Shown here: one piece after another, positions 9,159 through 59,742 of the stretch | How the letters are laid out: each line of letters begins with the position of its first letter | Position numbering within the stretch: the stretch's first letter is position 1 | Virus record (IMG/VR): IMGVR_UViG_3300025913_000006 | Coordinates: 1 to 62,252 of that record | DNA: 62,252 bases | Direction: 5' to 3' (one strand) | DNA from: a virus | The notes under the pieces: generated by a model | The model's input: the letters and a program-made list of their open reading frames with translations, nothing else | The model's database searches: none | What the model was told of the DNA's origin: nothing | Position numbers and translations under genes: made by a program

Positions 9159-9273
9159 GTTTCTCCTATCGGTCTTGCCGATGTAAGGATAATATCACGT
9201 CCCGCGACAAAATGGTGAACTTTTTTAGAGTTTTTCATATTTTGTTTCCGCGATCCGTGATATTATGAATCCG
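9159..9273. promoter_or_regulatory. divergent control region with perfect 10-bp inverted repeat
   Basis: The only divergent gap between the leftward recombination operon and the rightward replication operon. ATAATATCAC (9189-9198) and its exact complement GTGATATTAT (9257-9266) flank about 58 bp that include A/T tracts. Each copy also reads as an extended -10 (TG-A-TATTAT) pointing outward, so the repeat may be both promoter and operator. The leftward transcript has a leader with AGGAGA; the rightward one seems leaderless. Confidence 0.6.
9261..9266 (+). promoter_or_regulatory. -10 box (TATTAT, extended TG) of leaderless gene 9274
   Basis: TATTAT preceded by TGA, ending exactly 7 nt before ATG 9274, so transcription would start at or next to the start codon. 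No good -35 is visible. Confidence 0.55.
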
Positions 9274-9456
9274 ATGGAGAACGAACAGATTCCCAAGCGG
9301 AAATATCGGAAGCTCACGATTCAAGAGCAAATCTCCCTGCGTGATCGGTACTGGAACCGAGTGCGTACGGGAGAGACAGTCCAGCAGATCGCAGACGACT
9401 ACAACGTTTGTGCGAGGAACCTAAAGAAGCGTGTAGACGCGATGGGGAAAGAATAA
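9274..9456 (+). CDS. small HTH-type regulator candidate, 60 aa
   Basis: First gene of the rightward operon. ATG 9274 is preferred over ATG 9265 because it lies 7 nt after a -10 box and no Shine-Dalgarno is present, so it should be leaderless. The product is basic and its C-terminal half (ETVQQIADDYNVCARNLKKR) looks like a helix-turn-helix similar to those in transposase/resolvase-type proteins. Its position beside the divergent operator suggests an early regulator. Its stop overlaps the next start as TAATG. Confidence 0.65.
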   Translation: MENEQIPKRKYRKLTIQEQISLRDRYWNRVRTGETVQQIADDYNVCARNLKKRVDAMGKE

Positions 9457-11072
9457 TGCAAGCCGTCATCACGAAGGCCCAGGCCAACCAATTGCTTGCG
9501 GACGGAAACGTCGCAGTGCGTCACCGAGCGGCATTTGAGGCCCGATACAACGAAAACCTTACCATTGACCTGTCCGCGCTCGCTGAAGAAGGCGTCACGT
9601 GGCTAAGCGAAAACGGCAGTGACTTAGTTAGGCGCAAGGTGACCACATATCAGCGACTCATGTCCAACCCGGTCGCCAAGATCGGCAAACTTGAGAACAT
9701 TCCTACGCTTATGCGATCGGTTCTAAAGGACGCGCCCAATAAATGGTTCTTTGCTCAAGAGGACGGAATTCTCGTTCCTTACTTCACGGTGAGTAGCGAG
9801 TACAGCAAGGGCGAACGCGATAATCCAGCGTTCGCGACCTTGACGATGGTCGCCTACTCTCACAGTGGACAGACTTCACGAAGTTTCAAATGGTCAACGG
9901 AGGACATCAGCGGGAAGACGATTTACGACCTACTTGGCGAGAAAAACCTCGTTGCCGAAGACGACGCTCTCGTGAAGGAATATCGTCAGCAGGTTAGTAA
10001 GTATCTCAAGTTGCGGAAACTCGTAGGCGTTCAGATGCTCGCGAAGGGAAGCGGACTCCGAATGGACGGGACAAGTTGGGAATACGTCAGAGAGGCGCAA
10101 CTCGTTGACGGCCAATCGACAAAGATCGTGCTTGATGAAGAAACGCCGGAACTGAAGGAGAATCGTAAGCGCGGCAGCACTTCAAAGTCTGAATCAGTCG
10201 CGATGAAGTTCTGGAGCAAGACGACAGACGATGAAGTAGAGGAAGTTCCGTACGAAGTCCCTACGCATCCGTTCTTGTATGTCTTTAGCCTTCGAACCCA
10301 TCGCTGGCTGGAAATGCATGTTGACAACTTAACTGATTACCGGTGGTCTGACGACATCAACGATAAGTTGGTCCTTCCTCCGGCGAACAAACGGTTAATC
10401 CGACTCCTTATCGAAAACACGGGTAACAACATGGCCGACATCATCGCGGGCAAGTCGGGCGGCGTGATTGTTCTCGCTTCAGGCCCTCCAGGAGTCGGCA
10501 AGACATTGACCGCCGAAGTCACGAGCGAGCTACTTCACAAGCCCCTCTATAGCGTCCAATGCAGCCAACTGGGGACCAAAGAGGAACTGATAGAGGAACG
10601 ACTCGGCAAAGTGCTCGCTAGGGCCTCACGATGGGGGGCGGTGATGCTTATTGACGAGTCAGACGTTTATGTGCGGACTCGTGGCGAGGACATCCAACAA
10701 AACGCAATCGTTGGCGTCTTCCTGCGCACCCTTGAGTATTACAACGGCTTCCTATTCTTGACAACGAACCGCGCCACGACGGTTGACGATGCGATCCTGT
10801 CTCGGTTGACCGCGCACGTTCGGTATCGACTTCCCAATATCGAAGATCGGCGCACTATCCTCAAGGTTCAGGCCGAAGCGTTGGGCGTCGAGTTATCGCG
10901 AGAGGTTATCGACCACGCGGTAAACCTGCCTCTTTCTGGTCGTGATATTCGAAGCGTTCTGAAGCTTGCGCGACTCGTCGGAAAGTCAGAAAACCGCCCA
11001 TTGGACGTCGATCTACTCAAATTCTGTCTTGAATACCAAGACGTAACCGAATCAAGCGAGGAAAATGTATGA
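9456..11072 (+). CDS. AAA+ ATPase
   Basis: A 538-aa protein starting at ATG 9456 (TAATG overlap). The N-terminal about 300 residues are a poorly conserved domain; the C-terminal AAA+ module has Walker A GPPGVGKT (about 343-350), Walker B MLIDES (about 397-402), a sensor-1 TTNR and an arginine-finger-like ILSRLTAHVRY. The core resembles classical AAA proteins (FtsH/Bcs1/p97-like), not the bacterial clamp loader. It sits two genes before a sliding clamp and upstream of the primase-helicase, so it may load the clamp or remodel replication complexes; that is inference. Confidence 0.88.
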   Translation: MQAVITKAQANQLLADGNVAVRHRAAFEARYNENLTIDLSALAEEGVTWLSENGSDLVRRKVTTYQRLMSNPVAKIGKLENIPTLMRSVLKDAPNKWFFAQEDGILVPYFTVSSEYSKGERDNPAFATLTMVAYSHSGQTSRSFKWSTEDISGKTIYDLLGEKNLVAEDDALVKEYRQQVSKYLKLRKLVGVQMLAKGSGLRMDGTSWEYVREAQLVDGQSTKIVLDEETPELKENRKRGSTSKSESVAMKFWSKTTDDEVEEVPYEVPTHPFLYVFSLRTHRWLEMHVDNLTDYRWSDDINDKLVLPPANKRLIRLLIENTGNNMADIIAGKSGGVIVLASGPPGVGKTLTAEVTSELLHKPLYSVQCSQLGTKEELIEERLGKVLARASRWGAVMLIDESDVYVRTRGEDIQQNAIVGVFLRTLEYYNGFLFLTTNRATTVDDAILSRLTAHVRYRLPNIEDRRTILKVQAEALGVELSREVIDHAVNLPLSGRDIRSVLKLARLVGKSENRPLDVDLLKFCLEYQDVTESSEENV

Positions 11073-11374
11073 CCGATCCCGATCTCAGCCCAACCGCTCA
11101 ACGCGCACTCCTTCACAAATCTCCAATGGATGCGATTGACTTCCTTCGGAGGATGGGAGCAATGCCGTACGAAATCCAATTCAACGAAGAGGTGGAGGAA
11201 TCCGAATCAGAACGCGAAGAGACTCGTGATGACGGAACGACGGTTGTTTACATAGAATCAGAAATCACGATCACCAAAGTTCAAATGCAAGATGAAAAAG
11301 AACTCTTCACTCCCCACAAATGCGAAGTAGCCATCCTTCAAATTAGGCTTGCGGTTGCGGAGGGGAGACTGTGA
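11069..11374 (+). CDS. acidic hypothetical protein, 101 aa
   Basis: Coupled to both neighbours (ATGA at 11069, GTGATG at 11371). An N-terminal helical part is followed by a strongly acidic central stretch (EEVEESESEREE) and a short beta/helical end. No family recognised. The position between the AAA+ ATPase and the clamp hints at a replication accessory role, without direct support. Confidence 0.65.
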   Translation: MTDPDLSPTAQRALLHKSPMDAIDFLRRMGAMPYEIQFNEEVEESESEREETRDDGTTVVYIESEITITKVQMQDEKELFTPHKCEVAILQIRLAVAEGRL

Positions 11375-12468
11375 TGGCAGAGAAGATTGTTTTGAATCGC
11401 AAAGAGATTTTCGCGGCGTCGAAATCTGCATTGCAGGCGACAAACTCTAAGTTCACGGACTTCATGATTTCTCCATGTGACGCTGGGCTTACCATTGCGG
11501 GCAGCAAAGATACTCTGTATATTGGGCGCACGATTGAAGGGCGGTTCGAATTTGAGGCGTTCAAAGTGTGCGCCTCCGATTTTCATAAAGGACTCAGCTC
11601 TCTTGAATCTGACACCGTGGAAATCGCCTCAGAAAAGCACAAAATCGGTGTTTATTCTGGGAATTCGTTGTTTCGGCTGCCGATAAATGAGGAGGTTGAA
11701 TCATTCCCTGACTACGCATATCTTTCTACGCCAGAGGAAGAAATGGATATCACTGGCACTGATATTAGACGGGCGCTTCTCGTGAAAGATTGTGTTGACC
11801 TCGTGGCGGGTCTCCCTACTTCGAAATGCGGAATCTATCTGATAGAAGAGCACGCAGTAGGATTCAACGGGCGATTTCTTATGCGCTCGAAGCTCAGCAC
11901 GGAATTTCCCGCAGGCAGACGAGACATCGGCCTATATCCTGAAGGGCTAAAGGTTGTCTCTGATCTTTCCGCCGACGCTGAGATTGTGAGGGTCCGATTG
12001 CATTCCGGGAGGGTCGAGTTTGTCGGCGATGGATTCAGAGTTGTAACAGGTCGAATCCCGTGCGGAATGCCAATTTTCGAAAAGAGCATCCGCGCCGAGT
12101 CGCCAACGACATGGATCGCGAACACCGAAGAGTTAGCATCGGCAGTACGTAGCGCGAATCTATACGGCCCTGTGAGCGTTGGCCTAGAGGTAGTCAATAA
12201 TCAGCTACGCGTCTTCACTGGTCATAGCGAAAGGCTCGGTTCTTCTGAATCGTTCGTTCAAGTGGAGGCATCGGGAGGCATCTCGCATGTTTTCATGAAT
12301 CCAGAAAATATATCTTCAGCCCTCAGTGCGATACAGTCCGAGAAGTGTGAAATCGGCCTGCTCTCCCAAACTCAGCCGGTATTCATCAAGCCGTTTGAGG
12401 GTGATGAAATATTTGCCGCCTCAGCCCCAATGCCAGTCCATGCGAATCTGCTCAAGGTGACGGCATGA
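11374..12468 (+). CDS. dnaN: DnaN-like DNA polymerase sliding clamp
   Basis: A 364-aa product, close to the 366 aa of bacterial beta clamps. Sequence features fit the three-domain DnaN fold: the ISPCDAGLTIAGSKDTLYIG strand pair in domain 1, FRLPINEEVESFPDY (the clamp RLPxxxxxxFP signature) near residue 100, and a C-terminal domain ending in a beta-rich PV-F region. The clamp encircles DNA and tethers polymerase and repair enzymes. The start is ATG 11374 with GGAGGGG upstream; GTG 11371 is the alternative. Phages of this size rarely carry their own bacterial-type clamp. Confidence 0.85.
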   Translation: MAEKIVLNRKEIFAASKSALQATNSKFTDFMISPCDAGLTIAGSKDTLYIGRTIEGRFEFEAFKVCASDFHKGLSSLESDTVEIASEKHKIGVYSGNSLFRLPINEEVESFPDYAYLSTPEEEMDITGTDIRRALLVKDCVDLVAGLPTSKCGIYLIEEHAVGFNGRFLMRSKLSTEFPAGRRDIGLYPEGLKVVSDLSADAEIVRVRLHSGRVEFVGDGFRVVTGRIPCGMPIFEKSIRAESPTTWIANTEELASAVRSANLYGPVSVGLEVVNNQLRVFTGHSERLGSSESFVQVEASGGISHVFMNPENISSALSAIQSEKCEIGLLSQTQPVFIKPFEGDEIFAASAPMPVHANLLKVTA

Positions 12469-14764: not shown

Positions 14765-14772
14765 GATCATCA

Positions 14773-14810: not shown

Positions 14811-14818
14811 GAACCACC

Positions 14819-15005: not shown

Positions 15006-15030
15006 CGTGCCCGAAGGTGACCTTCTCGTG

Positions 15031-17928: not shown

Positions 17929-18131
17929 CCACGTTCTCCCGATCAGCCGTGGTGGCCGGTTCCGAAAATTGGGCGACCCACCCATCAGACTGGACGCCCG
18001 CCCAAAAACGAACCTGGGCCGATGCCACGAGGACCACAAGAAATCCAGACGAGAACGCGGCACTTGACTCTCAGGTCGCCGCACTCCGATCAACCCCACA
18101 AAAACCTATATCATTAACTGATAGTTTGTGA
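17925..18131 (+). CDS. hypothetical protein, 68 aa
   Basis: ATG 17925 overlaps the preceding ORF as ATGA. The product has an N-terminal MTTFSRSAVVAG segment and a WTPAQKRTWADATRTTRNPD stretch; no family is recognised. It ends one base before the -10 box of gene 18147. Support is limited to frame and coupling. Confidence 0.4.
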   Translation: MTTFSRSAVVAGSENWATHPSDWTPAQKRTWADATRTTRNPDENAALDSQVAALRSTPQKPISLTDSL

Positions 18132-18137
18132 TATACT
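18109..18137 (+). promoter_or_regulatory. promoter/operator of gene 18147
   Basis: TATACT (18132-18137) preceded by TGA forms an extended -10 that ends 9 nt before ATG 18147. Just upstream, TATCA (18109-18113) and TGATA (18119-18123) make a short inverted repeat at the -35 position, a possible operator. Confidence 0.45.
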
Positions 18138-18146
18138 TAGGGAGAT

Positions 18147-18848
18147 ATGGAAACGAAGCGTGAAGTTTGCGAAGTAGGGCGAAAGCTCGTGGAGTCGGCG
18201 GTGTTGTCGAAAGGGGCACATGGAAGTACGTTCGGTAAAAACTTAGCCGAACCGTGTGAAGTGTGCGTGATGGAGTTGCGAGCGCAAGTGGGTGCGCTGT
18301 GCGGATGGTTTCCGGAAGTCAAGACGGATTTCCCGAAAGGCGACTCGCGATGCCTTTCGAGGTTTTTGCACGTCATCAACGACCGATGCACGGATGAGCA
18401 GCGCGAAGAATTGAAGCAGTTTGTTTTGCTTGACTTGTCCAAAAAATCGGACGAACTGGAGGTGAAGCGAATCTACAGGTGTGCCGACTGGGCGGTTCGT
18501 GAGGTTGCTGTTCGGAGATTCAAGCGGATCGGTCGAGAGGATTTAGCCGAGAAGTTTGCCGCGTTTGATCCGATCACGGACAAAGTGAGCGCCCAAAAGG
18601 CGCGAGCCGATGCCGATGCCGCTGCCGCTGCCTATGCCGCTGCCGATGCCGATGCCGCTGCCGCTGCCGATGCCGCTGCCTATGCCGCTGCCGATGCCGA
18701 TGCCGCTGCCGCTGCCTATGCCGCTGCCGCTGCCGATGCCGCTGCCGCTGCCTATGCCGCTGCCGCTGCCGCTGCCTATGCCGATGCCGCTGCCGCGTGG
18801 CAAGCTACGCTTGCCTTTGTTCATGAGTTGATTGAGATGGAGGCTTAA
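18147..18848 (+). CDS. Ala/Asp/Tyr tandem-repeat protein, 233 aa
   Basis: Residues 1-150 form an ordinary mixed domain with several Cys (GREVCEVGR-like start, PCEVCVMEL, CADWAVREVAVRRF). Residues about 153-217 are almost pure Ala with regularly placed Asp and Tyr, encoded by hexamers of the form GCN GCC (18606-18796), and the end is an amphipathic helix. Similar Ala-rich helical-repeat proteins, some annotated as putative immunity proteins, occur in phages and bacteria. The repeat tract is expected to vary in length between relatives. The gene seems near-leaderless. Confidence 0.7.
   Translation: METKREVCEVGRKLVESAVLSKGAHGSTFGKNLAEPCEVCVMELRAQVGALCGWFPEVKTDFPKGDSRCLSRFLHVINDRCTDEQREELKQFVLLDLSKKSDELEVKRIYRCADWAVREVAVRRFKRIGREDLAEKFAAFDPITDKVSAQKARADADAAAAAYAAADADAAAAADAAAYAAADADAAAAAYAAAAADAAAAAYAAAAAAAYADAAAAWQATLAFVHELIEMEA
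18606..18796 (+). repeat. low-complexity GCTGCC/GATGCC/TATGCC hexamer tract
   Basis: About 32 near-identical 6-bp units differing only in one or two bases (GCT, GAT or TAT before GCC). Because of the 6-bp period all forward frames and one reverse frame stay open, which creates false ORFs on both strands. It is slippage-prone and keeps the coding frame if whole units are lost. Confidence 0.85.
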
Positions 18849-23480: not shown

Positions 23481-23582
23481 TTCCGTATTTCTCCTGCCCT
23501 CTCGTTGAGGACATGAATATAGTAGCACGTAATCAAGATGGATGCAAGCAGTTTTTCAAAAATAGGCAAAGAAAAATAGAAA

Positions 23583-24976: not shown

Positions 24977-25186
24977 TTAGCCGATTGACTTAGCCAGAGC
25001 CTCCGCTGCAGCCTTCATCGTCTTGTACTTGATGTCTCTCGACCCAGTGATAAACCACCAGCCCTGAGAGCGTCCACGCTTTGTGTAGAAGCATCCAGTC
25101 CATTCGACGGTTCCGATTTCCACGCCATCCAGAAACACAGGATTCGGTGCGCATTCAGCGGTTCGCTTTACAGTCACGTTGCTCAT
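24977..25186 (-). CDS. hypothetical protein, 69 aa
   Basis: Start ATG 25186 is chosen from an open frame extending to 25360, because TATGAT lies 10 nt upstream and the longer frame would collide with the divergent promoter of gene 25298. Basic, beta-rich N-terminus (FLDGVEIGTVEWTGCFYTKR) and an Ala/Lys helix at the end. Unrecognised. Confidence 0.6.
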   Translation of the reverse strand: MSNVTVKRTAECAPNPVFLDGVEIGTVEWTGCFYTKRGRSQGWWFITGSRDIKYKTMKAAAEALAKSIG

Positions 25187-25196
25187 CACGTCCACC

Positions 25197-25202
25197 ATCA
25201 TA
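25197..25202 (-). promoter_or_regulatory. -10 box TATGAT of gene 25186
   Basis: TATGAT on the minus strand ends 10 nt before ATG 25186, leaving at most a 3-nt leader. GGTGG in between is a weak alternative ribosome site. Confidence 0.4.
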
Positions 25203-25261
25203 CGCGACCCATCGAAGAAAAGCAACCCTCTGAGAGATATTCCTAAAATATCCCGTAGATA

Positions 25262-25290
25262 TTGCAAGGACTGCGGAAACGTGGTAGAAT
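25262..25290 (+). promoter_or_regulatory. promoter of leaderless gene 25298
   Basis: TTGCAA (25262-25267), a 17-nt spacer, and TAGAAT (25285-25290) with an extended TG. The -10 ends exactly 7 nt before ATG 25298, so the mRNA should begin at the start codon. Confidence 0.7.
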
Positions 25291-25297
25291 TGGTGTG

Positions 25298-25780
25298 ATG
25301 GGAACAAGAGGATCTTTCGGTTTTCGGCACAACGAGCAAGACGTACTTGCCTACAACCATTTTGATAGCTACCCAGACGGTCTAGGACTTGACGTGCTGG
25401 CTTTCGCGGTGAAGTACGCAAACCAGCTACCGAAGCTACGCGAATTGGTTGTAGCGCTCCAAGTGGTAAGTCTGGATATGACGCCGACGCCTGAGCAGAT
25501 CGTAAAATGTGCGCCGTACACAAATCTGGGAGTAAGCCGCCAAAGCACTGACGACTGGTATTGCTTGCTTCGGGAGTGCCAGGGCGATTTAGACAAAACC
25601 CTGGAATCAGGATTCGTCTTGGAATGCCTAGATAGGGGCGAATATTCGTACATTTTGAACCTAGATGACGCCACATTCGAGGCTTACGACGGCGACGAAA
25701 AGCGCGGATCTTGGCCGCTAACCGCTCTGCCTGACGGAAAAGAATTCATGGCGGCATTTAGCTCTGAGGACGACGAATGA
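25298..25780 (+). CDS. conserved phage protein (MGTRG...NHFDSYPDG family), 160 aa
   Basis: Leaderless ATG 25298, 36 nt inside the open frame. The N-terminus MGTRGSFGFRHNEQD and YNHFDSYPDGLG are hallmarks of a phage-encoded family found in many phages without known function. The C-terminal part has EYSYILNLDDATFEAYDG. A TTG at 25262 coincides with the -35 box and is unlikely to be a start. Coupled to the next gene by ATGA. Confidence 0.75.
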   Translation: MGTRGSFGFRHNEQDVLAYNHFDSYPDGLGLDVLAFAVKYANQLPKLRELVVALQVVSLDMTPTPEQIVKCAPYTNLGVSRQSTDDWYCLLRECQGDLDKTLESGFVLECLDRGEYSYILNLDDATFEAYDGDEKRGSWPLTALPDGKEFMAAFSSEDDE

Positions 25781-26038: not shown

Positions 26039-26044
26039 TAGAAT
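26039..26044 (+). promoter_or_regulatory. -10 box TAGAAT of leaderless gene 26052
   Basis: TAGAAT ends 7 nt before GTG 26052, the same hexamer and spacing as at gene 25298. No convincing -35 at the 17-nt position. Confidence 0.5.
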
Positions 26045-26051
26045 AGAATGC

Positions 26052-26231
26052 GTGAGGAAGAGCCACGGAGGCAAAAGAAAGGGTGCCGGGGCGCCGAGAA
26101 AAGACCCAGGTGGCAGTAAGAGGGAAGAGTTCAGCTACTTCCTCACAAAAGAAGAGGACAGGAAGCTGCGGGAGATCGTGAAGGAAATGCGGAAGGCAGG
26201 AGAAAGTGGGAACGATGAGTTTATTGGGTGA
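26052..26231 (+). CDS. small basic protein with GGKRKGAGAPRK motif, 59 aa
   Basis: Starts at GTG 26052. The N-terminus GGKRKGAGAPRKDPGG is the AT-hook-like phage motif also present in gene 22577. A helical segment follows (YFLTKEEDRKLREIVKEM). Leaderless by promoter position; no ribosome site. Confidence 0.65.
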   Translation: MRKSHGGKRKGAGAPRKDPGGSKREEFSYFLTKEEDRKLREIVKEMRKAGESGNDEFIG

Positions 26232-31611: not shown

Positions 31612-31644
31612 GCCCTCGTATCTCGCCATGCGGGGGCATTTTTT
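31612..31644 (+). terminator. intrinsic terminator after the lysis region
   Basis: GCCCTCG (31612-31618) pairs with CGGGGGC (31631-31637), one wobble, 12-nt loop, then A and six T (31639-31644). Its 3' arm also contains the TGCGGGG that matches the tRNA acceptor strand of the next element. Confidence 0.75.
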
Positions 31645-31724
31645 AAAGTAATCTGAGTTCAGCTTGGTAGAACGCGTGGCTCATAACCACGAGGCCGAGG
31701 GTTCAAATCCCTCCCCCGCACCCA
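31629..31724 (+). tRNA. tRNA-Met(CAT)-like element with displaced 5' acceptor strand
   Basis: 31657-31724 folds as a tRNA body: D-stem GTTC/GAAC around AGCTTGGTA, anticodon stem CGTGG/CCACG with loop CTCATAA (anticodon CAT at 31682-31684), 5-nt variable loop, T-stem GAGGG/CCCTC with TTCAAAT, then CCCCGCA, C and an encoded CCA. The matching 5' acceptor strand TGCGGGG is present at 31629-31635 but 19-21 nt too far upstream, inside a terminator arm. It is therefore not a standard functional tRNA. It may be an interrupted tRNA, a tRNA-derived attachment sequence or a tRNA-like structure. Confidence 0.6.
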
Positions 31725-31787: not shown

Positions 31788-31818
31788 TTGCCTTCTTAGG
31801 TTTTCTGTGCTAACCTAA
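31788..31818 (+). promoter_or_regulatory. promoter with overlapping operator for the morphogenesis operon
   Basis: TTGCCT (31788-31793), exactly 17 nt, then TAACCT (31811-31816), which ends 7 nt before ATG 31824. TTAGGTT (31796-31802) and AACCTAA (31812-31818) form a perfect 7-bp inverted repeat covering the spacer and -10, ideal for repression. Probably a main late promoter. Confidence 0.65.
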
Positions 31819-31823
31819 ATGAT

Positions 31824-32198
31824 ATGGCAACCGTCACGCCCGTATTCGCCCTATCTGTTCCGCAGGACTCACCCGTACTTGCAGGGGAGAAGTTCTCTGT
31901 CCGTGGTCCCACGAAGTCTGTAGGTGATGGCCTGATCGGCAACTTCATCGCGAACTCGTTCAAGAAGATCGGAGCGCAGGCAACGGGAGCGATGCAACTC
32001 CTGAAGAATCCAGACGGAACGTATACGCTTGGCGAGCAGGCCGACATCACTGATACGATCATGGGACTTGAGACGGACCTATACAAGCATCGCCTCACTC
32101 AGAACTTGACCCCGATTGAGGCCGAGATTTACTTGAAGTTTCTGCCCGAAGGCGCGACGGTTTCATTGGTCGGCACGTTTGCATTTGAGGTCGCATGA
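31824..32198 (+). CDS. hypothetical protein at head of late operon, 124 aa
   Basis: Leaderless ATG 31824. No signal peptide; central basic helical region (IANSFKKIGAQATGAMQLL) and a C-terminal LPEGATVSLVGTFAFEVA beta segment. Unrecognised; probably virion-related from its position. ATGA overlap with the next gene. Confidence 0.6.
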   Translation: MATVTPVFALSVPQDSPVLAGEKFSVRGPTKSVGDGLIGNFIANSFKKIGAQATGAMQLLKNPDGTYTLGEQADITDTIMGLETDLYKHRLTQNLTPIEAEIYLKFLPEGATVSLVGTFAFEVA

Positions 32199-34699: not shown

Positions 34700-34708
34700 T
34701 GATAGCAT
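34700..34708 (+). promoter_or_regulatory. extended -10 (TGATAGCAT) before gene 34725
   Basis: Located in the 36-nt gap before ATG 34725. It leaves a short leader containing AAGG, so this gene has a normal ribosome site. Confidence 0.4.
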
Positions 34709-34724
34709 AAGGTAAGGTTCAAAA

Positions 34725-35141
34725 ATGCTCAGGCCCACACTCACGTTCACCATCAGCGAAGGAACTCACCCTTCCACTTCGGTCAACCTTGACGATTTCT
34801 CGGTTCCGTTCCCCGGTGCAGTCGGTTCGCTGGTTTCGTCGCTCATTGAAAACGAACTCGCGAAAGAGACGTTGAAGGCGGCGGGATCGGCATGGGTAAC
34901 GCAGACCGTGAACCCAGAAGACCAGACACAGGTCACCTATCAACTCGCGGAATTGATTGCAGTTGATGCAGGCATTATTCCTCTACCTGATTCGCTTAAG
35001 TCCATATCTCTTCACGAGAACATCAGCCAGGGAGAATACGACGCATTCCGCAAGTTCCTTGGTGATACGGTGAAAGTTGAAGGCGAGTTGACGTTCACAA
35101 GGATTGAGGACATCAGCGAAACGGTAAAGGAAGGTTCGTAA
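34725..35141 (+). CDS. hypothetical protein before terminase, 138 aa
   Basis: Mixed alpha/beta; DFSVPFPGAVGSLVSSLIEN, then YQLAELIAVDAGIIPLPDSL and a C-terminal beta/acidic segment. No known domain. Immediately before the terminase genes, so part of packaging or virion assembly by context only. Confidence 0.6.
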   Translation: MLRPTLTFTISEGTHPSTSVNLDDFSVPFPGAVGSLVSSLIENELAKETLKAAGSAWVTQTVNPEDQTQVTYQLAELIAVDAGIIPLPDSLKSISLHENISQGEYDAFRKFLGDTVKVEGELTFTRIEDISETVKEGS

Positions 35142-37721: not shown

Positions 37722-37727
37722 TAGAGT
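37722..37727 (+). promoter_or_regulatory. -10 box TAGAGT of leaderless gene 37735
   Basis: TAGAGT ends exactly 7 nt before ATG 37735; a weak TTAGGG lies 17 nt upstream. An internal promoter within the head-gene cluster. Confidence 0.5.
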
Positions 37728-37734
37728 CGCGGTG

Positions 37735-38046
37735 ATGATCGACGCCAGCCAAGTGCGTACGGGGCCTATCCTGCTAACCGAAGACACTCTAAGCAAGTGG
37801 GACCAGTTGGACCGCGTAGGACTTGAACCATTGAAAGGTGAAGTGGTCGCAGTCGGCAGGCAGAGAGGGCGAGTTCCCATGCCGAAGGTAGGACAGACTT
37901 TAGCTTTGAAGCGCGGAGGCCTGACGGTGGAGCATAACGATTTCGACATCCCAACGGTAGGCGCGATGGTTCCTGAAGGGTTCGCGCTACGAATTTACGG
38001 AGTCGGTGAAGAGTGGACGGATGGCGTTCACGGAGAATTACAATGA
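37735..38046 (+). CDS. GroES-like/co-chaperonin-fold candidate, 103 aa
   Basis: Start at ATG 37735 (leaderless position); TTG 37714 and GTG 37729 are alternatives. The sequence VGLEPLKGEVVAVGRQRGRV, PKVGQTLALKRGG and later VPEGFALRIYGVGE has the order of short strands, basic loop and 'G-x-V' turns seen in GroES-type small barrels, and it lies next to capsid genes as phage co-chaperonins do. The match is weak and unconfirmed. Confidence 0.5.
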   Translation: MIDASQVRTGPILLTEDTLSKWDQLDRVGLEPLKGEVVAVGRQRGRVPMPKVGQTLALKRGGLTVEHNDFDIPTVGAMVPEGFALRIYGVGEEWTDGVHGELQ

Positions 38047-52360: not shown

Positions 52361-52369
52361 TGCTACACT
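52361..52369 (+). promoter_or_regulatory. extended -10 (TGCTACACT) before the basic microproteins
   Basis: In the 66-nt gap after the 1720-aa gene. Transcription would begin near 52377 in a short leader with AAAGGA upstream of ATG 52389. Confidence 0.4.
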
Positions 52370-52388
52370 CCCTTAAAGGATAAGTCCC

Positions 52389-52514
52389 ATGAAAAAGAAA
52401 GCGAACATGATCCCCGATCTCGACATGAAGAAGACCAACGTTCCCGCGCCGAAGACGTCTAAGGCCCCCGGAATGAAGAAGACCAGTGGCGACACTTGGC
52501 CGAGGAAGAAATGA
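52389..52514 (+). CDS. basic microprotein, 41 aa
   Basis: Nearly a third Lys, with KKTNVPAPKTSKAPGMKKTS. It ends in an ATGA overlap with the next small gene. Composition suggests a disordered DNA- or RNA-binding peptide; the position at the end of the morphogenesis operon fits a virion-packaged peptide. Confidence 0.6.
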   Translation: MKKKANMIPDLDMKKTNVPAPKTSKAPGMKKTSGDTWPRKK

Positions 52515-52666: not shown

Positions 52667-52668
52667 TC

Positions 52669-52884: not shown

Positions 52885-53170
52885 GCCATTGACCGCTTTC
52901 GACGTCATGTCTGGAAGCGGTCTTTTCCTGTACATGCGGCGCATCCATGTCTAGCCGACGCAGGACGGTGAATTCGCCCCGTTTGTCATGGCGCACGACA
53001 CGAAGGTCCCACGGAAGGACCTTGAATATGTCAGGTTGTGCGGCGATCAACTCGTCTGACACTTGAACGTAATCCGTATCAGGGTCAACCCACTCGAAGC
53101 GGAGCTTTAGACTTCCCCTAATGAGGTCATCTTCTCGGGTGCATTTGATTTCAGATACAGATTCGTTCAT
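52871..53170 (-). CDS. hypothetical protein, 99 aa
   Basis: Downstream of the 970-aa tail gene with its own probable -10 (53180-53185) and no ribosome site. Beta-rich (GSLKLRFEWVDPDTDYVQVS), acidic. Unrecognised. Confidence 0.6.
   Translation of the reverse strand: MNESVSEIKCTREDDLIRGSLKLRFEWVDPDTDYVQVSDELIAAQPDIFKVLPWDLRVVRHDKRGEFTVLRRLDMDAPHVQEKTASRHDVESGQWPTSS
52891..52926 (+). terminator. intrinsic terminator of the morphogenesis operon
   Basis: GACCGCTT (52891-52898) pairs with AAGCGGTC (52915-52922), 16-nt loop, then four T. It lies inside the 3' end of the convergent gene 52871-53170. Confidence 0.7.
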
Positions 53171-53179
53171 TTCGGTCTT

Positions 53180-53185
53180 ATCTTA
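53180..53185 (-). promoter_or_regulatory. -10 box TAAGAT (extended TG) of gene 53170
   Basis: Minus-strand TGATAAGAT overlaps the stop codon of the tail gene and ends 9 nt before ATG 53170. Confidence 0.4.
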
Positions 53186-56098
53186 TCACGAACCGGTATC
53201 CGCACCGTCGCCATCAAATCCAGTCGTCTCAATCGAAGCAAGGTAGACGTGCGACCCTGAAGGCGAGGTACCTCCTAAACTGACCTGAATGCCCGTACTG
53301 TGGACTCCAGGGAAATTAGGGGCAATGTCGAAACGAACGCACCTAGGTCCCGTCACGGCGGTGTTAATCGACCCCGAAGATGTCAAAGGCGTCGCCCGGT
53401 CAACCGTGGCCCTGTTCGTGGTCAGCGTCCCCATATTCGCATCGCAGTTGACGACCATCCTTCGAACCCTGACGCCGTGGAACCCATCTGACTTGATCTC
53501 GGGGAAGTTGAGTTGCCACGCCACCCCCGAGATGCCAGCGTCCGAAGTTTGCCCGTACGTGACGTGCTCGAAAAGCTGACCCGTCAAGTCGCACCCGATC
53601 AAATGGGTTTTCGTTCCAGATCGGTAGCAGAGCAAAGTAGACGCACCCTGAACCGCAGTCGGGAAAACATCGGTGTACCAAACTGAGTCTTGAAGTCTCG
53701 TTGACTCGGAGTAGTCCCAAACCAAAGCGAAGGTATTAGGAGTCGTGATCGTGGCTGTAGACGGTGAAATCGCGAGGTAGTAAAGTTCCTCTTTCACTGA
53801 GGCGCACGCAAAAGGAATTCGAGCATCGGGGACGGCTTGGAGTAGACCCTCTACGATATTCCTTGAGACGGCATACGGGTACATCCCCGCATAAGGAATG
53901 GCCGGGTTGATTCCGTATCTGATAATGTGCCCATCGGTAGCCCACATCATCCAACCCGTCTGGAAGGCCGCTACAGACTTCGGAGCGTAGGTGCCCTGTT
54001 CGTAGGTTCTCGCCCTCTTAGAAAGGGATGCAGCATCCCAACCGGTGACCTGAGACACGGTTCTGTCCGTGAAGATGAACACAGACGAAACACCGTTCGC
54101 TGGTGACCCTTCTCCTTCGTTTCCAGCTTGAAGAGAACCGATAGACAGTAGGGCTTGAATCGTTTCCCCGTCGATTGTAAGGGACGTTCCCGACTCTGGA
54201 ATAAGGTTCCCGTTTGAGTCGTTCTGAGCGAGCGCGTAGAACTGAAACGGTCTTTCGGCGGTGGAAATCCACAATGTGCTTTTGAACCCAACCAACAATC
54301 TTTCGGAAGTGATCGCCATTGGGATACCGGCGGGCAAACACAGCACCGCACCAGATAGCGCAGGCCACCCAAAATCCTGATCGAAGTAGTTGACGAACGT
54401 TCTTGCAGAACCCGCGATTCCGCCCGTGTAGTTCCACGCAGAACCCGACCAAGTTCCTAGAATAATGTCCGCAACAAGGAACGGTTGGGATTCGCCGGGT
54501 TCCTGCGCATACAAGAGCCCTCGGTCTATCCCGTTGTTTAGATCGGCCTGTAGCGGGTTGGGAATCGTGACCACGTAGTCATAGAAGAACCTCGCGTCGT
54601 CTGCAATAGGAACAGAAGCAGCAGGGGTCTTGCCCTGGATTACCGTTGGGTATTGAGTAGACGGACCGATCTGCCTAGCGTCGGTCGCCATGTAAGCCGC
54701 CGCGAAAGTTGTTGTTCCTTGAAACTGCCCTGATCCCGCCATCAAGAAGGGGAAGAACTCAATCGTAATTGGAGGGGCGTTTCCTTGCCACTGCATCGTA
54801 ATTGACGTCACGTTCGTAAGGTCGAACGGAGTTGTAGTGGGGATAGGGTAGGCGATCTGTTCGACCCCGATAACTCGACCTTGCGGTTGAATATCAGACC
54901 TACTCAAAAAGATCGGAGTCCCAAAATCAGTGGTTGGGTTATAGAGAGACATCGAATGCCCCGAACCATCCCCCAAAGTGAGTTGCATCTGTTGCCAGAA
55001 ATTGCTAACTCCTGTCTCGACGGTTCCACCTGAAGTGTAAGCACCTGACCCCACCGAATTATTGAGGGTGAACTGAGTTGCGCTCGTGACCGTGATAACC
55101 CAAACGCCATTCGCGGCGGTGTTACCTGCGACTCCTTGGATGAGAACCGTTTGCCCTGATGCTAAGTAGTGGTTACCTGACGTCGTGACCTGAATCAGAA
55201 CTCCGGCCCCGGTGGTGGTCGAGATGTTCACCGAATACCATGCGTCCGCAATCATCACGAACTGCGTGGATTTGCTTAGGTCAAGCGGAGTCGAAAACGC
55301 GACCTTGGAAGTTGCCGAGACATAGGCGTTTAGGATCTCGCCCGTCATTCCAAATGCGCCGTTGAATAACTGCATCTGAGTGGCGTCGGAATTCGTGAAC
55401 GTCCAAGATCCCGACGCTGCAAGCGGCCATTGGTTGTTGAAGCCTGTCGAAAATGATAGCGAAGCGTTAGCAATTGGCACAGGGGGTTGGTAGACAATCG
55501 CGATGCCATAGCCGCCTCCGAACGTCGCCCCGTTGGATTTTCCGTAAATCAGGGGATTGTTGTCCCCGTTCTGAATCACAACCAGGTCGTATTCGGTGTT
55601 TCCGTTGTACGTTCTATCTCGAATGACTTGGAATTCAACTCGCGAGGCAGGAAAGGAGCTTTTGTACGGAAGTAAAGCGTTCTGAAGGTTCGTGGCACCG
55701 TAAGGCCCCGTAGATCCAGAAGTGATTTGCGTCCACGTCGCCCCGAAATCGGTGGACTTCCACACGTTCACCCCGGTTACGTTTATAACTCCGGGCTGAG
55801 AGCCGATGGCGGTGAAAATAGTGGGAACTCCATCCTGTTCGCATTCGTAAGTTCCATAACACCATCCCGCGATAGACGGAACGTTTCCGATTACCGTCAA
55901 CGGTAACCGCACAACAGGACGGCCCCATCGCCCCCTTACATTTTGAGCTAAGGAAACCTTTCCGGGGGGAAGTGACATCGAAGGCGCGTCGGAATTCTGC
56001 CCCGTGAAGTTTATGGGGATTCCCTGCGGCGTGTTTCCTCCGACAAGAGGAATAAGGGCATCGGGGGCCGGAGGTTGAGGGGGCTTAGGGGCGGCCAT
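53186..56098 (-). CDS. large tail protein (nozzle/hub type), 970 aa
   Basis: Starts at ATG 56098 (TAATG overlap). Pro-rich N-terminus, then WGRPVVRLPLTVIG and long beta-rich regions with repeated Trp-Gly turns (NVWKSTDFGATWTQITSGST), suggesting a propeller. Phage proteins with this layout form the tail nozzle or stabilisation ring in podoviruses (P22 gp10/T7 gp12-like role). No enzymatic motif. Placed directly after the head-tail connector, which supports a short-tail structure. Confidence 0.7.
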   Translation of the reverse strand: MAAPKPPQPPAPDALIPLVGGNTPQGIPINFTGQNSDAPSMSLPPGKVSLAQNVRGRWGRPVVRLPLTVIGNVPSIAGWCYGTYECEQDGVPTIFTAIGSQPGVINVTGVNVWKSTDFGATWTQITSGSTGPYGATNLQNALLPYKSSFPASRVEFQVIRDRTYNGNTEYDLVVIQNGDNNPLIYGKSNGATFGGGYGIAIVYQPPVPIANASLSFSTGFNNQWPLAASGSWTFTNSDATQMQLFNGAFGMTGEILNAYVSATSKVAFSTPLDLSKSTQFVMIADAWYSVNISTTTGAGVLIQVTTSGNHYLASGQTVLIQGVAGNTAANGVWVITVTSATQFTLNNSVGSGAYTSGGTVETGVSNFWQQMQLTLGDGSGHSMSLYNPTTDFGTPIFLSRSDIQPQGRVIGVEQIAYPIPTTTPFDLTNVTSITMQWQGNAPPITIEFFPFLMAGSGQFQGTTTFAAAYMATDARQIGPSTQYPTVIQGKTPAASVPIADDARFFYDYVVTIPNPLQADLNNGIDRGLLYAQEPGESQPFLVADIILGTWSGSAWNYTGGIAGSARTFVNYFDQDFGWPALSGAVLCLPAGIPMAITSERLLVGFKSTLWISTAERPFQFYALAQNDSNGNLIPESGTSLTIDGETIQALLSIGSLQAGNEGEGSPANGVSSVFIFTDRTVSQVTGWDAASLSKRARTYEQGTYAPKSVAAFQTGWMMWATDGHIIRYGINPAIPYAGMYPYAVSRNIVEGLLQAVPDARIPFACASVKEELYYLAISPSTATITTPNTFALVWDYSESTRLQDSVWYTDVFPTAVQGASTLLCYRSGTKTHLIGCDLTGQLFEHVTYGQTSDAGISGVAWQLNFPEIKSDGFHGVRVRRMVVNCDANMGTLTTNRATVDRATPLTSSGSINTAVTGPRCVRFDIAPNFPGVHSTGIQVSLGGTSPSGSHVYLASIETTGFDGDGADTGS

Positions 56099-56769
56099 TA
56101 TCTAATTCTCGTGGGGAAGTACGCAGAAGCAGGGAAGAACCCGGACTGCCCTTGTGTTTGCATAGACACGATATGCTCGTGATTCGCCTGTAATTCGCTG
56201 TCTGACATCATTTGCCAGTAGGGTTGTTGGGCTGGGTTATCTACCGCCGTCCACTTGGCGTACATTTCGTACAGATAGTAGTTGTCCGACAATAGAGAGG
56301 CGGGGACGTTATCCCCAACATCCAATGCCACCCACTTGGAGCAATACAGGACGATTCGAGGGTAAGTCTGAACACTTGAAAATGAAGGAATAGGCACAAG
56401 CCCAACTGTCAACGATCCTGAATCTAAAACATCCGAAGCCGAGACATAGTAATCCGTGGGCTGGCCCTGATACGTGGGGCTTCGCCATCCCCATTGAGAT
56501 ACATCCAACCAATCGGTTGAACTCTCAGTGAGGGGGTTTTGCGTGTTAGCGTCTTGCTGGAAATACGCAGACTCGATCTTGGTTACCGAAGGGTCAAGCG
56601 CATATTCCCTTTGCTGGGCAACAAGGGTGATGTAGACGACTCCGTTTCGAAGCTGAATCCTTGACAGTAGCTTCTTGTGGGCATCGTTAAACAGACTGAG
56701 TTGCGTTGCCGCGTCCACGTCAGGGAATTTGATGGCGAACTTATCGAGGACTTGCTGAACGGTGCTCAT
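56098..56769 (-). CDS. head-tail connector/adaptor candidate, 223 aa
   Basis: STVQQVLDKFAIKFPDVDAA at the N-terminus, then LRNGVVYITLVAQQREYALD and a C-terminal helical region (YEMYAKWTAVDNPAQQPYWQ). The family places such proteins between portal and tail, like P22 gp4 or T7 gp11. ATGA coupling with gene 56766 upstream. Function inferred from layout. Confidence 0.7.
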   Translation of the reverse strand: MSTVQQVLDKFAIKFPDVDAATQLSLFNDAHKKLLSRIQLRNGVVYITLVAQQREYALDPSVTKIESAYFQQDANTQNPLTESSTDWLDVSQWGWRSPTYQGQPTDYYVSASDVLDSGSLTVGLVPIPSFSSVQTYPRIVLYCSKWVALDVGDNVPASLLSDNYYLYEMYAKWTAVDNPAQQPYWQMMSDSELQANHEHIVSMQTQGQSGFFPASAYFPTRIR

Positions 56770-57146
56770 GGTTTGTTACCGAATCGCGGCCAATACTTCT
56801 TGCTTCGACGAGGATCGGGAGCGTAGGCCCTCAAATACCATCGCCCATCAATATTCACCATAGCACTCGGAGCGCCGTATAGGCCGGTTGCCGCGCAAAT
56901 CCGAATCGGATAGTCTGTGATGGAGTTAGGCTTATCTCTCTGAACCATCGTCATGTGACTCGGTGGGACTGTTTCTATCGAATCCCAATCCGTGTCTGGG
57001 TCCAATGCTTCGGGGTCGATCACATCCCCAGGCCAGTTCCCATCGTCAATCGCACCGCCTCCAAAAACCACCGTCACCGTGGAAATCGCATCGTTATAGT
57101 TCTCCCCTCCCATCCAATACGAAAGGGGCGGCGCTGGATAGAACAT
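56766..57146 (-). CDS. hypothetical protein in tail unit, 126 aa
   Basis: ATG 57146 is 6 nt after TATAAT, so probably leaderless; the ORF extends to 57215 but that would cross the promoter. Contains an acidic Asp/Gly/Trp-rich middle (WPGDVIDPEALDPDTDWDSI) and a basic C-terminus. First gene of the inverted tail segment; unrecognised. Confidence 0.6.
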   Translation of the reverse strand: MFYPAPPLSYWMGGENYNDAISTVTVVFGGGAIDDGNWPGDVIDPEALDPDTDWDSIETVPPSHMTMVQRDKPNSITDYPIRICAATGLYGAPSAMVNIDGRWYLRAYAPDPRRSKKYWPRFGNKP

Positions 57147-57152
57147 GAAAAG

Positions 57153-57158
57153 ATTATA
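57153..57158 (-). promoter_or_regulatory. -10 box TATAAT of tail operon
   Basis: Consensus TATAAT on the minus strand, 6 nt before ATG 57146. The overlapping + strand sequence may serve gene 57177. Confidence 0.6.
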
Positions 57159-57176
57159 CGATAGCAGCGCGCAGGC

Positions 57177-57410
57177 GTGGAAGATCACCGCAAAGCGGTA
57201 GCTATTGAATCGCACGGGCCGCGTATTGGAGCCGCAACAGAACCAACCAACTTCATAATCCAGCGTTATGCGAAGGTGATGTTTGTGCAGCTTTGTATAA
57301 CGATTATTATGATAGTTGGCCGCAAGGAGGCGGTACGCGATAGCGCTCCGGTCGAAACTGGACGGTCAATGCGGAGGCGTGATTGGTTTTGGGCTCAGGT
57401 GCTATCATAG
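57177..57410 (+). CDS. possible membrane protein, 77 aa
   Basis: GTG 57177. Central hydrophobic segment (VMFVQLCITIIMIVG) between polar N-terminal and basic C-terminal parts. The stop lies in the -10 box of the next gene. No family; support is only frame and composition. Confidence 0.45.
   Translation: MEDHRKAVAIESHGPRIGAATEPTNFIIQRYAKVMFVQLCITIIMIVGRKEAVRDSAPVETGRSMRRRDWFWAQVLS
57400..57408 (+). promoter_or_regulatory. extended -10 TGCTATCAT of gene 57419
   Basis: Ends 10 nt before ATG 57419, leaving at most a 3-nt leader. Confidence 0.5.
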
Positions 57411-57418
57411 AGAAAGCA

Positions 57419-57736
57419 ATGAGCACCGACGAACAAGATTTGATCCTGGTTAGGGTTGTCAAGGAGAACCTAAGCCTTGAGCGAGAGATTGCATTCCGCA
57501 AAATTCAGCTTGGCGAGTTCAAGGTCGCGCTGAAGGAGGCAGTCAAGGCAATTGAATTTGAGTTATCTTCAGACGGCGACAAATTGAATGCGGCCATTCT
57601 TGGTGAGCGACCGACTGCGGATCGATTGAAGAAGATGCCGAACGCCGAGAAGATCACTGAGGCATCTGAGGCGCTTTCGACGGCGGTAACTGCTCACAAA
57701 AAGACGCAGGAGACTTTGCGAAACTTAGGCCTGTAA
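57419..57736 (+). CDS. coiled-coil hypothetical protein, 105 aa
   Basis: Start at ATG 57419; the frame is open from 57383. Almost entirely helical with heptad-like patterns (VRVVKENLSLEREIAFRKIQ, KVALKEAVKAIEFELSSDGD). Unrecognised. Confidence 0.6.
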   Translation: MSTDEQDLILVRVVKENLSLEREIAFRKIQLGEFKVALKEAVKAIEFELSSDGDKLNAAILGERPTADRLKKMPNAEKITEASEALSTAVTAHKKTQETLRNLGL

Positions 57737-57759
57737 GCCGCATGGCGTGGGCTTGGCGC

Positions 57760-58242
57760 TCAGTTGCCTGACGTGGCGTCGAACTGCCAGCAATCGCTCA
57801 TCATGGCTTTTGATGCGTCTACGGGGCACAGAGTGTTGTTTGCGCCAATCTTCGCGAACTGAAAATCTCCCCACACTTTCCCAGCCTTTCCGTTTACTTC
57901 GATATGGATGTCGTGGCCGTCCGTCCTCCATTTCCCGACGCTGGTAACGTTTGTCTTACAGTTGGTAACCGTGCATATGTTTCCTTTTTCGGAAAGAGTG
58001 AGGATCTCCGGGAGAACCATATTGCCCCATGTGTTTCCGCGAATGCGCTCGGCGAATTTTTCGATTGACGTTGGCTCTTTGTATGGATGAATCCTGCCGT
58101 AAATATAGAGAGTCGCGAACCCAATGGGAATGATGGACCCCATGAGGATCACTGCGACGTTCCCTGCCACATTGCGCGCCTTCTGCTTGAACGTGAACCA
58201 GCGCTCCCAACTTTCTATTTCTTCTCGCGCGTCAACGCCCAT
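57760..58242 (-). CDS. membrane-anchored exported protein, 160 aa
   Basis: ATG 58242 with GGAGG about 7 nt upstream. A transmembrane segment (AVILMGSIIPIGFATLYIYG) near residues 29-49, then an extracytoplasmic-looking domain with four Cys (ICTVTNC, later CPVDASKAMMSDC). The same frame is open to 58488, but that extension overlaps the preceding gene and is not likely coding. Confidence 0.6.
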   Translation of the reverse strand: MGVDAREEIESWERWFTFKQKARNVAGNVAVILMGSIIPIGFATLYIYGRIHPYKEPTSIEKFAERIRGNTWGNMVLPEILTLSEKGNICTVTNCKTNVTSVGKWRTDGHDIHIEVNGKAGKVWGDFQFAKIGANNTLCPVDASKAMMSDCWQFDATSGN

Positions 58243-58481
58243 GCTCCACCTCCGATTGCCGCGAACTGAACAAACAGTCGTGTCCAATCCGTGACGCGTC
58301 CTTCTGCCTCTTGCCCGAAAAGGAACGTGTATCCTGCCCAATACCGATGACCGTACGGGTTCGTGTGCTCCATCGGCGGGAAGACAAACATTAGGGCTCC
58401 GATTGCAATAGCAATCCACCAGACGACACGCGTTCGTGTGACCACGGCGCGATTGTAATTCACAATCACCAAAAACCGCAA
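58215..58481 (-). CDS. multi-pass membrane protein, 88 aa
   Basis: Frame open from TTG 58481; GTG 58469 or 58463 are alternatives. Hydrophobic segments about residues 19-34 and 72-85 flank a polar aromatic region (EHTNPYGHRYWAGYTFLFG). Overlaps the next gene by 28 nt. Possibly functions with it at the cell envelope. Confidence 0.55.
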   Translation of the reverse strand: MRFLVIVNYNRAVVTRTRVVWWIAIAIGALMFVFPPMEHTNPYGHRYWAGYTFLFGQEAEGRVTDWTRLFVQFAAIGGGAWALTREKK

Positions 58482-58498
58482 CCTTCATCGGTAAGGCT

Positions 58499-58735
58499 AT
58501 GCGGAAAACATCTGTTCATGACCGCCTAGCATTGGAACTGAAGGCGGCAAGAGAAAAGGCTGGGATCAGTCAGCGCGACATGGCGCATCGGCTAGGGACA
58601 AACCAGACGGCGGTCTGTTTTATTGAGAACGGGACGCAGAGCGTGCGTGTGACCGACCTAATCGCATGGTGTGAGATATTGACCCTGGACCCTTGCGAGG
58701 TGCTACGCGCATCCTTCAGCCAGACCAACCATTGA
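58499..58735 (+). CDS. XRE-family HTH regulator, 78 aa
   Basis: DRLALELKAAREKAGISQRD, then MAHRLGTNQTAVCFIENGTQ is a standard Cro/C1-type helix-turn-helix with conserved I-S-Q and turn. A single-domain Cro-like protein without a cleavage domain. Divergent from the membrane genes at 58215-58481, so it may regulate that intergenic promoter. Confidence 0.82.
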   Translation: MRKTSVHDRLALELKAAREKAGISQRDMAHRLGTNQTAVCFIENGTQSVRVTDLIAWCEILTLDPCEVLRASFSQTNH

Positions 58736-58748
58736 CTTGCCCGGTTGG

Positions 58749-58757
58749 TGATAGGAT
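58749..58757 (+). promoter_or_regulatory. extended -10 TGATAGGAT of gene 58766
   Basis: Ends 8 nt before ATG 58766. TTGACT at 58732-58737 lies too close (14 nt) for a standard -35. Confidence 0.45.
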
Positions 58758-58765
58758 GGGCGGCG

Positions 58766-59017
58766 ATGGATAAATCCTTCTACTTGCAGTACGTCAGAAA
58801 CGCGATAACTAGGCTTGATGAGCAGGTTGGCACTTTTGAGGGGCGAAATTTCCTGGGCGCTAAAGAGATCATCGAAATGATGATGCGAGTGCGAGCGGAG
58901 CTTATTGCAGAGCAGAGCGAAGCGGTCCTTCTCCCGGACGATACAGACTGGGTTGCCCGGTTTCGGGAGAAATTAACTCCACTGCCGGGAAAACATGGTC
59001 CCAGATTTTCTCTGTAA
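58766..59017 (+). CDS. hypothetical protein, 83 aa
   Basis: ATG 58766 (leaderless position) inside a frame open from 58745. Helical (NAITRLDEQVGTFEGRNFLG, AKEIIEMMMRVRAELIAEQS) with a basic C-terminus. Unrecognised. Confidence 0.55.
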   Translation: MDKSFYLQYVRNAITRLDEQVGTFEGRNFLGAKEIIEMMMRVRAELIAEQSEAVLLPDDTDWVARFREKLTPLPGKHGPRFSL

Positions 59018-59078
59018 CTCCAGCATGAGCTTCGGTTAGGCACCAACACCAAAATCGCCCCGGAAGACATCGAGCCTT

Positions 59079-59118
59079 GAAAATGGACGTCGCGACCACG
59101 CTCGTGGCGTCCATTTTC
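59079..59118. repeat. 11-bp inverted repeat with nested 5-bp stem
   Basis: GAAAATGGACG (59079-59089) and its exact complement (59108-59118); the 18-nt interior contains CCACG/CGTGG, so a two-tier hairpin can form. On both strands the outer end is A/T-rich, so weak bidirectional termination after gene 59017 is possible. Confidence 0.7.
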
Positions 59119-59178
59119 GGTAGACCTGCCTCGGAAACGTTTTGGGGCCGCGAAGGATGTCCCAACTTCATAAGGAAC

Positions 59179-59220
59179 TTATTATGCGAAGCAAATGTGA
59201 TGTGTTGCTTCGCATAATAA
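59179..59220. repeat. perfect 16-bp inverted repeat
   Basis: TTATTATGCGAAGCAA (59179-59194) and its exact complement (59205-59220) around a 10-nt loop ATGTGATGTG. No T tract beyond the arms' own A/T ends, so a cruciform, protein-binding dyad or RNA hairpin is as likely as a terminator. Confidence 0.75.
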
Positions 59221-59384
59221 TGGATTATGAGAGTTGGTTTGAGCGCAAGGCGTAGGATGCGGCGAAGTAAATGCCTCATATCTTCATCTTACACCGAAAC
59301 CTAACCGAAGTCGATCTCCGTGATCGACCTTCCCGAAGGGAGCAAGGGCCGACCGAGTTTTGGAGATACGAAGTGATATCATGA

Positions 59385-59393
59385 TGCTATACT
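59385..59393 (+). promoter_or_regulatory. extended -10 (TGCTATACT-type) of leaderless gene 59401
   Basis: TATACT (59388-59393) preceded by TGC ends exactly 7 nt before ATG 59401. Probable promoter of the fibre operon. GATATCATGAT just upstream is a possible operator. Confidence 0.6.
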
Positions 59394-59400
59394 CAGGCTT

Positions 59401-59742
59401 ATGGGGTACTCGGTAGACCGTCTTTCGAATTTGCTCGTGTCATTTACGGCGGCGACGTCTACGTCTGCTTCTCAACTCTCCGCGAACGCTGGGTGGACGG
59501 GGCTCGCGTCGGGTCAACAACAGTCTTTGTCTTCGGTTTGGCTCACCAACAACGACGTTTCCGCAACCATTTTTGTAGGATTCTCAAACACGGTTTCGTC
59601 TACTTCTTACTTCTACGCTTTACCCCCGCAGGGGATTTTGCCTGTAGACCTCCAGCATATGGGACGAGGTCCATTTACGAAACTTTGGGTCGTCGCCTCA
59701 ACGGGGGCCCCGAATATCACCGTTTCTCTCATGGGGGCGTAG
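59401..59742 (+). CDS. small beta-rich structural protein, 113 aa
   Basis: Leaderless ATG 59401. Ser/Thr-rich strands with SVWLTNNDVSATIFVGFSNT and KLWVVASTGAPNITVSLMGA, the pattern of small phage surface or decoration proteins. First gene of the fibre cluster; family not recognised. Confidence 0.6.
   Translation: MGYSVDRLSNLLVSFTAATSTSASQLSANAGWTGLASGQQQSLSSVWLTNNDVSATIFVGFSNTVSSTSYFYALPPQGILPVDLQHMGRGPFTKLWVVASTGAPNITVSLMGA

Follow-up and report, generated by a model that had tools for sequence, protein, structure and literature searches.

Leaderless genes of the TA-led type have been described across bacteria of many phyla, and Deinococcota and Actinomycetota are groups known for leaderless genes (PMC3160421). 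Among phages, Cluster O mycobacteriophages have predicted leaderless promoters, some of them divergent, with the +1 position on the first nucleotide of the start codon (PMC4351075), and the middle and late promoters of Thermus phage P23-45 belong to an extended −10 class that is less affected by gp39 (PMC7403470). Here we analysed a 62,252-base IMG/VR virus record with 52% GC from an unclassified phage, the whole of which is called the window below. It encodes RecE/RecT, a primase-polymerase, an AAA ATPase and a large terminase. Its structural region has no near match among 50,697 phage records, and scans of viral contigs with six other proteins revealed no relative with more than one or two genes in common.

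The window resembles TA-led genes (Zheng et al. 2011, PMC3160421) in the TANNNT core, in the lack of a Shine–Dalgarno (SD) site and in the mixture with SD-led genes; the first T of the box, about 12 bp upstream of the start in TA-led genes, is at 13 for most sites here. In contrast to TA-led genes, the boxes of the window mostly carry TGN and their gaps to the start have modes of 7 and 9 nt instead of 6, and TA-led genes are chromosomal whereas the window is a phage. The likeness to Cluster O mycobacteriophages, drawn from promoter descriptions, lies in predicted phage promoters, some of them divergent, whose +1 would fall on the start codon; Cluster O promoters are described as SigA-like and have a known mycobacterial host (PMC4351075), unlike those of the window. 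The likeness to P23-45 is an extended −10 class across phage operons, for which a −35 would be dispensable. The first 42 kb of P23-45, run as a positive control, gave no spacing peak of the leaderless kind. That phages have leaderless promoters was known before, and the window adds a new, well-defined instance, not a new kind.

TANNNT boxes upstream of start codons

A sequence-only reading of the window had listed twelve starts preceded by TANNNT boxes. Six boxes lie exactly 7 nt before the start (9274, 25298, 26052, 31824, 37735 and 59401), and the six further ones, with all twelve boxes and gaps confirmed as exact, have gaps of 9 nt (18147), 10 nt (25186, minus strand), 9 nt (53170, minus), 6 nt (57146, minus), 10 nt (57419) and 8 nt (58766). 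Gene starts were taken from a coding-potential model that is blind to promoters and SD sites and called about 105 genes, and these independently called starts were compared with dinucleotide shuffles of each 40-nt upstream region. TANNNT at gap 7 was observed 6 times versus 1.24 in shuffles (p = 0.001), and at gap 6–8 9 times versus 3.7 (p = 0.009), so the proposed enrichment is significant but modest. When starts corrected by homology or by the sequence-only reading were allowed, the counts became 7 and 11, respectively. The longer pattern TGNTANNNT was found 5 times at gap 6–10, versus 0.46 in shuffles (p = 0.001).

TANNNT occurs 1006 times in the window and is overall not over-represented. 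When other offsets of the real sequence served as the background, enrichment was weaker, with 14 boxes versus 7.2 at gaps 6–10 (P = 0.016) and P = 0.058 in a looser any-start test, and due to this TANNNT alone is a modest signal. The statement that most of the twelve starts are first genes of transcription units holds for eight, but not for 18147, 26052, 37735 and 53170, where the previous gene on the same strand is 15–38 nt away. Weak members of the twelve are 26052, 37735, 57419 and 58766.

Extended −10 motif

As a description of the motif, TANNNT captures the core and is incomplete: the fuller motif is TGNTANNNT (TG.TA...T) without an enriched −35. TGN precedes the box at 8/12 sites, compared with a share of 5.5% among the 1006 TANNNT of the whole window (P = 3e-8), and this excess, which the sequence-only reading did not name, is a stronger signal than TANNNT itself. 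Since that reading may have been drawn to promoter-like sequence, the TGN test was repeated independently of its list. With every called or alternative start included, unselected, 6 of 21 TANNNT at gaps 5–10 carried TGN (P = 0.0007). Moreover, TGNTANNNT was the most enriched of 1024 NN.NN...N patterns 6–11 nt before starts (7/55 before starts, P = 5.6e-7, or about 6e-4 when corrected), and it ranked top among 20 permutations of its own letters.

A −35 element was not enriched at the twelve sites (mean best match 2.42 versus 2.38 of 6, P = 0.86). The two −35 hexamers reported at 25262 (TTGCAA) and 31788 (TTGCCT) are present with 17-nt spacers, each matching TTGACA at 4/6 positions, and with the minus strand before 25186 they bring TTG at the 17-nt position to 3/12 sites (P = 0.004, post hoc).

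Individual predicted sites

The strongest sites would be those of 9274, 25298, 31824 and 59401. At 9258–9274 (+), TGATATTAT lies 7 nt before ATG 9274, which opens the replication operon with a small protein followed by the AAA ATPase (9456–11072). TTGCAA-17-TAGAAT with TGN lies 7 nt before ATG 25298 (25262–25298, +), and TTGCCT-17-TAACCT with TGN lies 7 nt before ATG 31824 (31788–31824, +), the promoter of which is preceded by a terminator-like hairpin at 31612–31637. At 59374–59401 (+), TGCTATACT (59385) lies 7 nt before ATG 59401 and is overlapped by a second box, TGATATCAT, at 59374.

Ranked next would be 58766, 57146, 18147, 53170, and 57419 or 25186/25189. TGATAGGAT lies 8 nt before ATG 58766 (58749–58766, +), which begins an 83-aa ORF not called as coding by the gene model. 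The first gene of the minus-strand operon 57146–53186 has TATAAT 6 nt and TGCTATCGT 11 nt before its ATG (57146–57166, −). For ATG 18147 (18129–18147, +), TGATATACT at 9 nt predicts a leader of about 2 nt; a second box, TGATAGTTT, stands at 18119, and the end of the upstream gene is 15 nt away. The same spacing and predicted leader of about 2 nt apply to TGATAAGAT before ATG 53170 (53170–53188, −), a box that overlaps the end of the upstream gene. TGCTATCAT lies 10 nt before ATG 57419 (57400–57419, +), which has a rival start, the in-frame TTG 57383 with a good GGAGG site. Divergent to 25298, TTGCTT-17-TATGAT without TGN (25186–25225, −) lies 10 nt before ATG 25186 and exactly 7 nt before the in-frame GTG 25189, and the GTG fits the 7-nt spacing better than the ATG.

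The two remaining boxes, both without TGN, are weak: TAGAAT 7 nt before GTG 26052 (26039–26052, +), with a short ORF and the previous gene 38 nt away, and TAGAGT 7 nt before ATG 37735 (37722–37735, +), with the previous gene 32 nt away. As a separate observation, extended −10 elements form overlapping tandem pairs, spaced 10 and 11 nt, at 18119–18137 (TGATAGTTTGTGATATACT) and 59374–59393 (TGATATCATGATGCTATACT).

Shine–Dalgarno sites

It had been claimed that most of the twelve starts lack a convincing SD site while internal genes use 4-nt overlaps or normal sites, and the SD contrast agrees with our results. Anti-SD binding of the twelve upstream regions was no better than that of random sequence (P = 0.13) and weaker than that of other genes (P = 0.006), which themselves show strong SD use (P = 3e-19 versus random). 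We then listed every TGNTANNNT within 45 nt of a start. At gaps of 7–11 nt (9274, 18147, 25298, 31824, 53170, 57146, 57419, 58766 and 59401) there was no SD between box and start, whereas of the extended −10 sites with leaders of at least 9 nt, four of five had an SD, 29537 being the exception without one.

The predicted leadered promoters are TGATAGCAT at 34700–34725 (+), separated from ATG 34725 by a leader of about 9 nt with AAGG in it; TGCTACACT at 52361–52389 (+), where AAAGGA stands in a leader of about 12 nt before ATG 52389; TGATATTAT at 9158–9197 (−), with AGGAG in a leader of about 23 nt upstream of ATG 9158; and an extended −10 at 23527 (−) with AGGAG in its leader. A further extended −10 at 4504 (−) has a gap of 14 nt, a leader of about 7 nt and no SD, and the boxes of 18147 and 59401 are each overlapped by a long-gap site, at 18119 and 59374, respectively. 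The promoters of 9158 (−) and 9274 (+) are divergent and share an intergenic region; both modes would thus be present in this phage, even within one divergent region, with 9158 predicted to be leadered and 9274 leaderless.

Start codon of 25298

The ORF at 25298 was overlooked by the coding-score gene caller, so its start is a correction to the gene calls. The family phrog_30528 aligns to the 25298 protein (MGTR...) from residue 1, and all phage homologues begin at that residue (MGTR/MGTRG); judged by these alignments, the predicted start is secured. A scan of viral contigs for the MGTRG family gave L064 and L065 only. Conservation of the leaderless layout in distant homologues was considered and rejected: their upstream regions differ, and two have SD-like sites. 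For the remaining downstream proteins of the twelve, no homologue that fixes the N-terminus was found.

Interpretation and alternative explanations

We consider it likely, with a probability of roughly three in four, that the boxes belong to extended −10 promoters read by a host sigma factor, of which about eight or nine would give transcripts with no leader or almost none, beside internal genes that are SD-led. The bases of this reading are the −10 geometry, the SD absence, the independent TGN signal and the homology-fixed start at 25298, and from these we infer promoter activity, exact 5′ ends and leaderless translation. The boxes would be −10 elements recognized by the host housekeeping sigma factor, in promoters mostly of the extended −10 class (TGN-TANNNT) for which a −35 would not be needed. 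Transcription would begin at the start codon, or no more than about 4 nt from it, at about eight or nine sites. If these mRNAs are leaderless or nearly so, the ribosome must start at the 5′-terminal AUG without an SD; for the downstream genes of these operons, translation would rely on overlaps or on SD sites of the usual kind, and SD-bearing leaders would follow further extended −10 promoters. Leaderless transcription had been put forward for the twelve sites as a whole; about eight or nine of them are best read in this way, and the generality of the proposal was overstated, as SD-bearing leadered extended −10s (34700, 52361, 9197− and 23527−) and the weak sites 26052 and 37735 count against it. 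Other counterpoints are that there are twelve sites in a single genome without close relatives, that a gap of 7 exceeds by 1 nt the mode of 6 found in classical leaderless genomes, and that gaps of 9–10 give a leader of 2–4 nt. The outcome is a testable promoter map for a phage without close relatives.

Ordinary leadered genes might produce the same picture if the boxes were chance A/T-rich matches and the real promoters lay further upstream. The commonness of TANNNT and its lack of overall over-representation fit this, as do the weak enrichment versus other offsets (P = 0.016–0.058) and the choice by eye among alternative starts in the sequence-only reading; but the shuffle value at gap 7, the TGN excess with its top rank among 1024 patterns, and the missing SD at these starts in a phage that otherwise uses SD all argue against chance, and we regard it as unlikely. 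Wrong start codons would be a different matter: the promoters could be real while translation starts further downstream, so that the mRNAs are leadered. Most downstream proteins have no homologue to fix the N-terminus, and alternative in-frame starts exist. However, 25298 is fixed by homologues, the named ATGs stand at a constant distance from the box, which is not expected of wrong starts, and no SD-led downstream start was seen in a non-systematic look, making this explanation quite improbable.

The last alternative concerns the polymerase. TGN in 8/12 sites without an enriched −35 could reflect the action of a phage-encoded sigma-remodelling factor, similar to gp39 of P23-45, by which host polymerase is redirected to promoters of the extended −10 class; the middle and late promoters of P23-45 are of this class and less affected by gp39 (PMC7403470). 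On the other side, no such factor came to light in the window, and at three sites TTG stands where a −35 would be (P = 0.004, post hoc, as above). A factor of this kind is also not needed, because some bacteria themselves show TGN-rich leaderless promoters, and we consider it very improbable.

Host of the phage

The boxes had been taken as a clue to a host in Deinococcota or Actinobacteriota, and this clue is not supported: boxes in the DNA tested from those groups peak at gap 6–7 and are mostly without TGN, whereas those of the window peak at gaps 7 and 9. In reference DNA subjected to the same test, the expected gap-6/7 peak was recovered in Deinococcus radiodurans MP1, Thermus thermophilus pTT27 and several Actinomycetota, which indicates that the method works; Ignavibacteria and Bacillota samples gave no peak. 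TGN accompanied the box in 12/133 cases in the Deinococcota and Actinomycetota DNA tested, versus 8/12 in the window (Fisher 1e-5) and 6/21 at its unselected starts (P = 0.02). In the Acidobacteriota sampled the share was 29/111 (Fisher 5e-4 versus 12/133), and the unselected starts of the window are like them (P = 0.79).

In the Acidobacteriota MAGs G001 and G021 (L071–L078, L100, L146–L152), leaderless-type promoters carry TGN much more frequently than in Deinococcota and most Actinomycetota sampled, which is possibly a phylum- or class-level promoter difference. Their TGN share and gap spread of 6–10 resemble the window, and in G001 the gaps likewise peak at both 7 and 9; protein searches gave no host link. 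Acidobacteriota are not uniform, as G012, G020 and G061–G080 lack the TGN-rich leaderless pattern, and one actinomycete, G051, also has TGN. Relatives of the terminase at 44–46% occur equally in single genomes of Acidobacteriota, Actinomycetota and Gemmatimonadota, and the terminase is therefore uninformative on the host. The portal-position protein had no match in 297 Acidobacteriota, and the best genome match of RecT was an Acidobacteriota MAG at 35%, amid a wide spread of phyla. Codon usage was best matched by an Actinomycetota genome of similar GC (G056) and was dropped, because this match follows base composition.

Due to the non-uniform Acidobacteriota, the TGN of G051 and the uninformative protein homology, Acidobacteriota are a lead only, and the promoter boxes do not tell which bacterium the phage infects. 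TANNNT alone is no host clue, since TA-led genes occur in many phyla (PMC3160421). Tentatively, and we think this rather unlikely, the host may come from an under-studied phylum such as Acidobacteriota, in which TGN-extended, −35-independent promoters 7–10 nt before the start would be the normal opening of operons; if so, promoter geometry would be a usable host signature for uncultivated phages. TGN share and leaderless spacing appear to differ between bacterial groups and could become a host clue.

Other features of the window

The first ORF (1–1740) begins 4 bases into the record, has a GDSL-like lipase domain and is probably truncated by the record end. In the leftward operon, adjoining the tail region, a 970-aa protein (53186–56098, −) has no PHROG match and a sub-threshold match to an E1 FCCH domain (5.7e-6). 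Between the terminator-like hairpin and the promoter of 31824 lies a tRNA-Met-like sequence (31656–31713, +) with anticodon CAU (Rfam, 46.7 bits), whose D-arm has no matching 5′ acceptor strand beside it and which ARAGORN did not call. Candidate readings are a degenerate phage tRNA or an attachment-site remnant. The protein scans showed no integrase, and as an attachment site pointing to the host the sequence was rejected, no near-identical match having been found. Finally, TTCACA-17-TATTCT with TGN, matching 9/12 of the consensus, points rightwards at 7372–7400 (+) in a gap of a leftward operon (7235–7430) where there is no rightward gene, and it is possibly a promoter of an antisense or small RNA.
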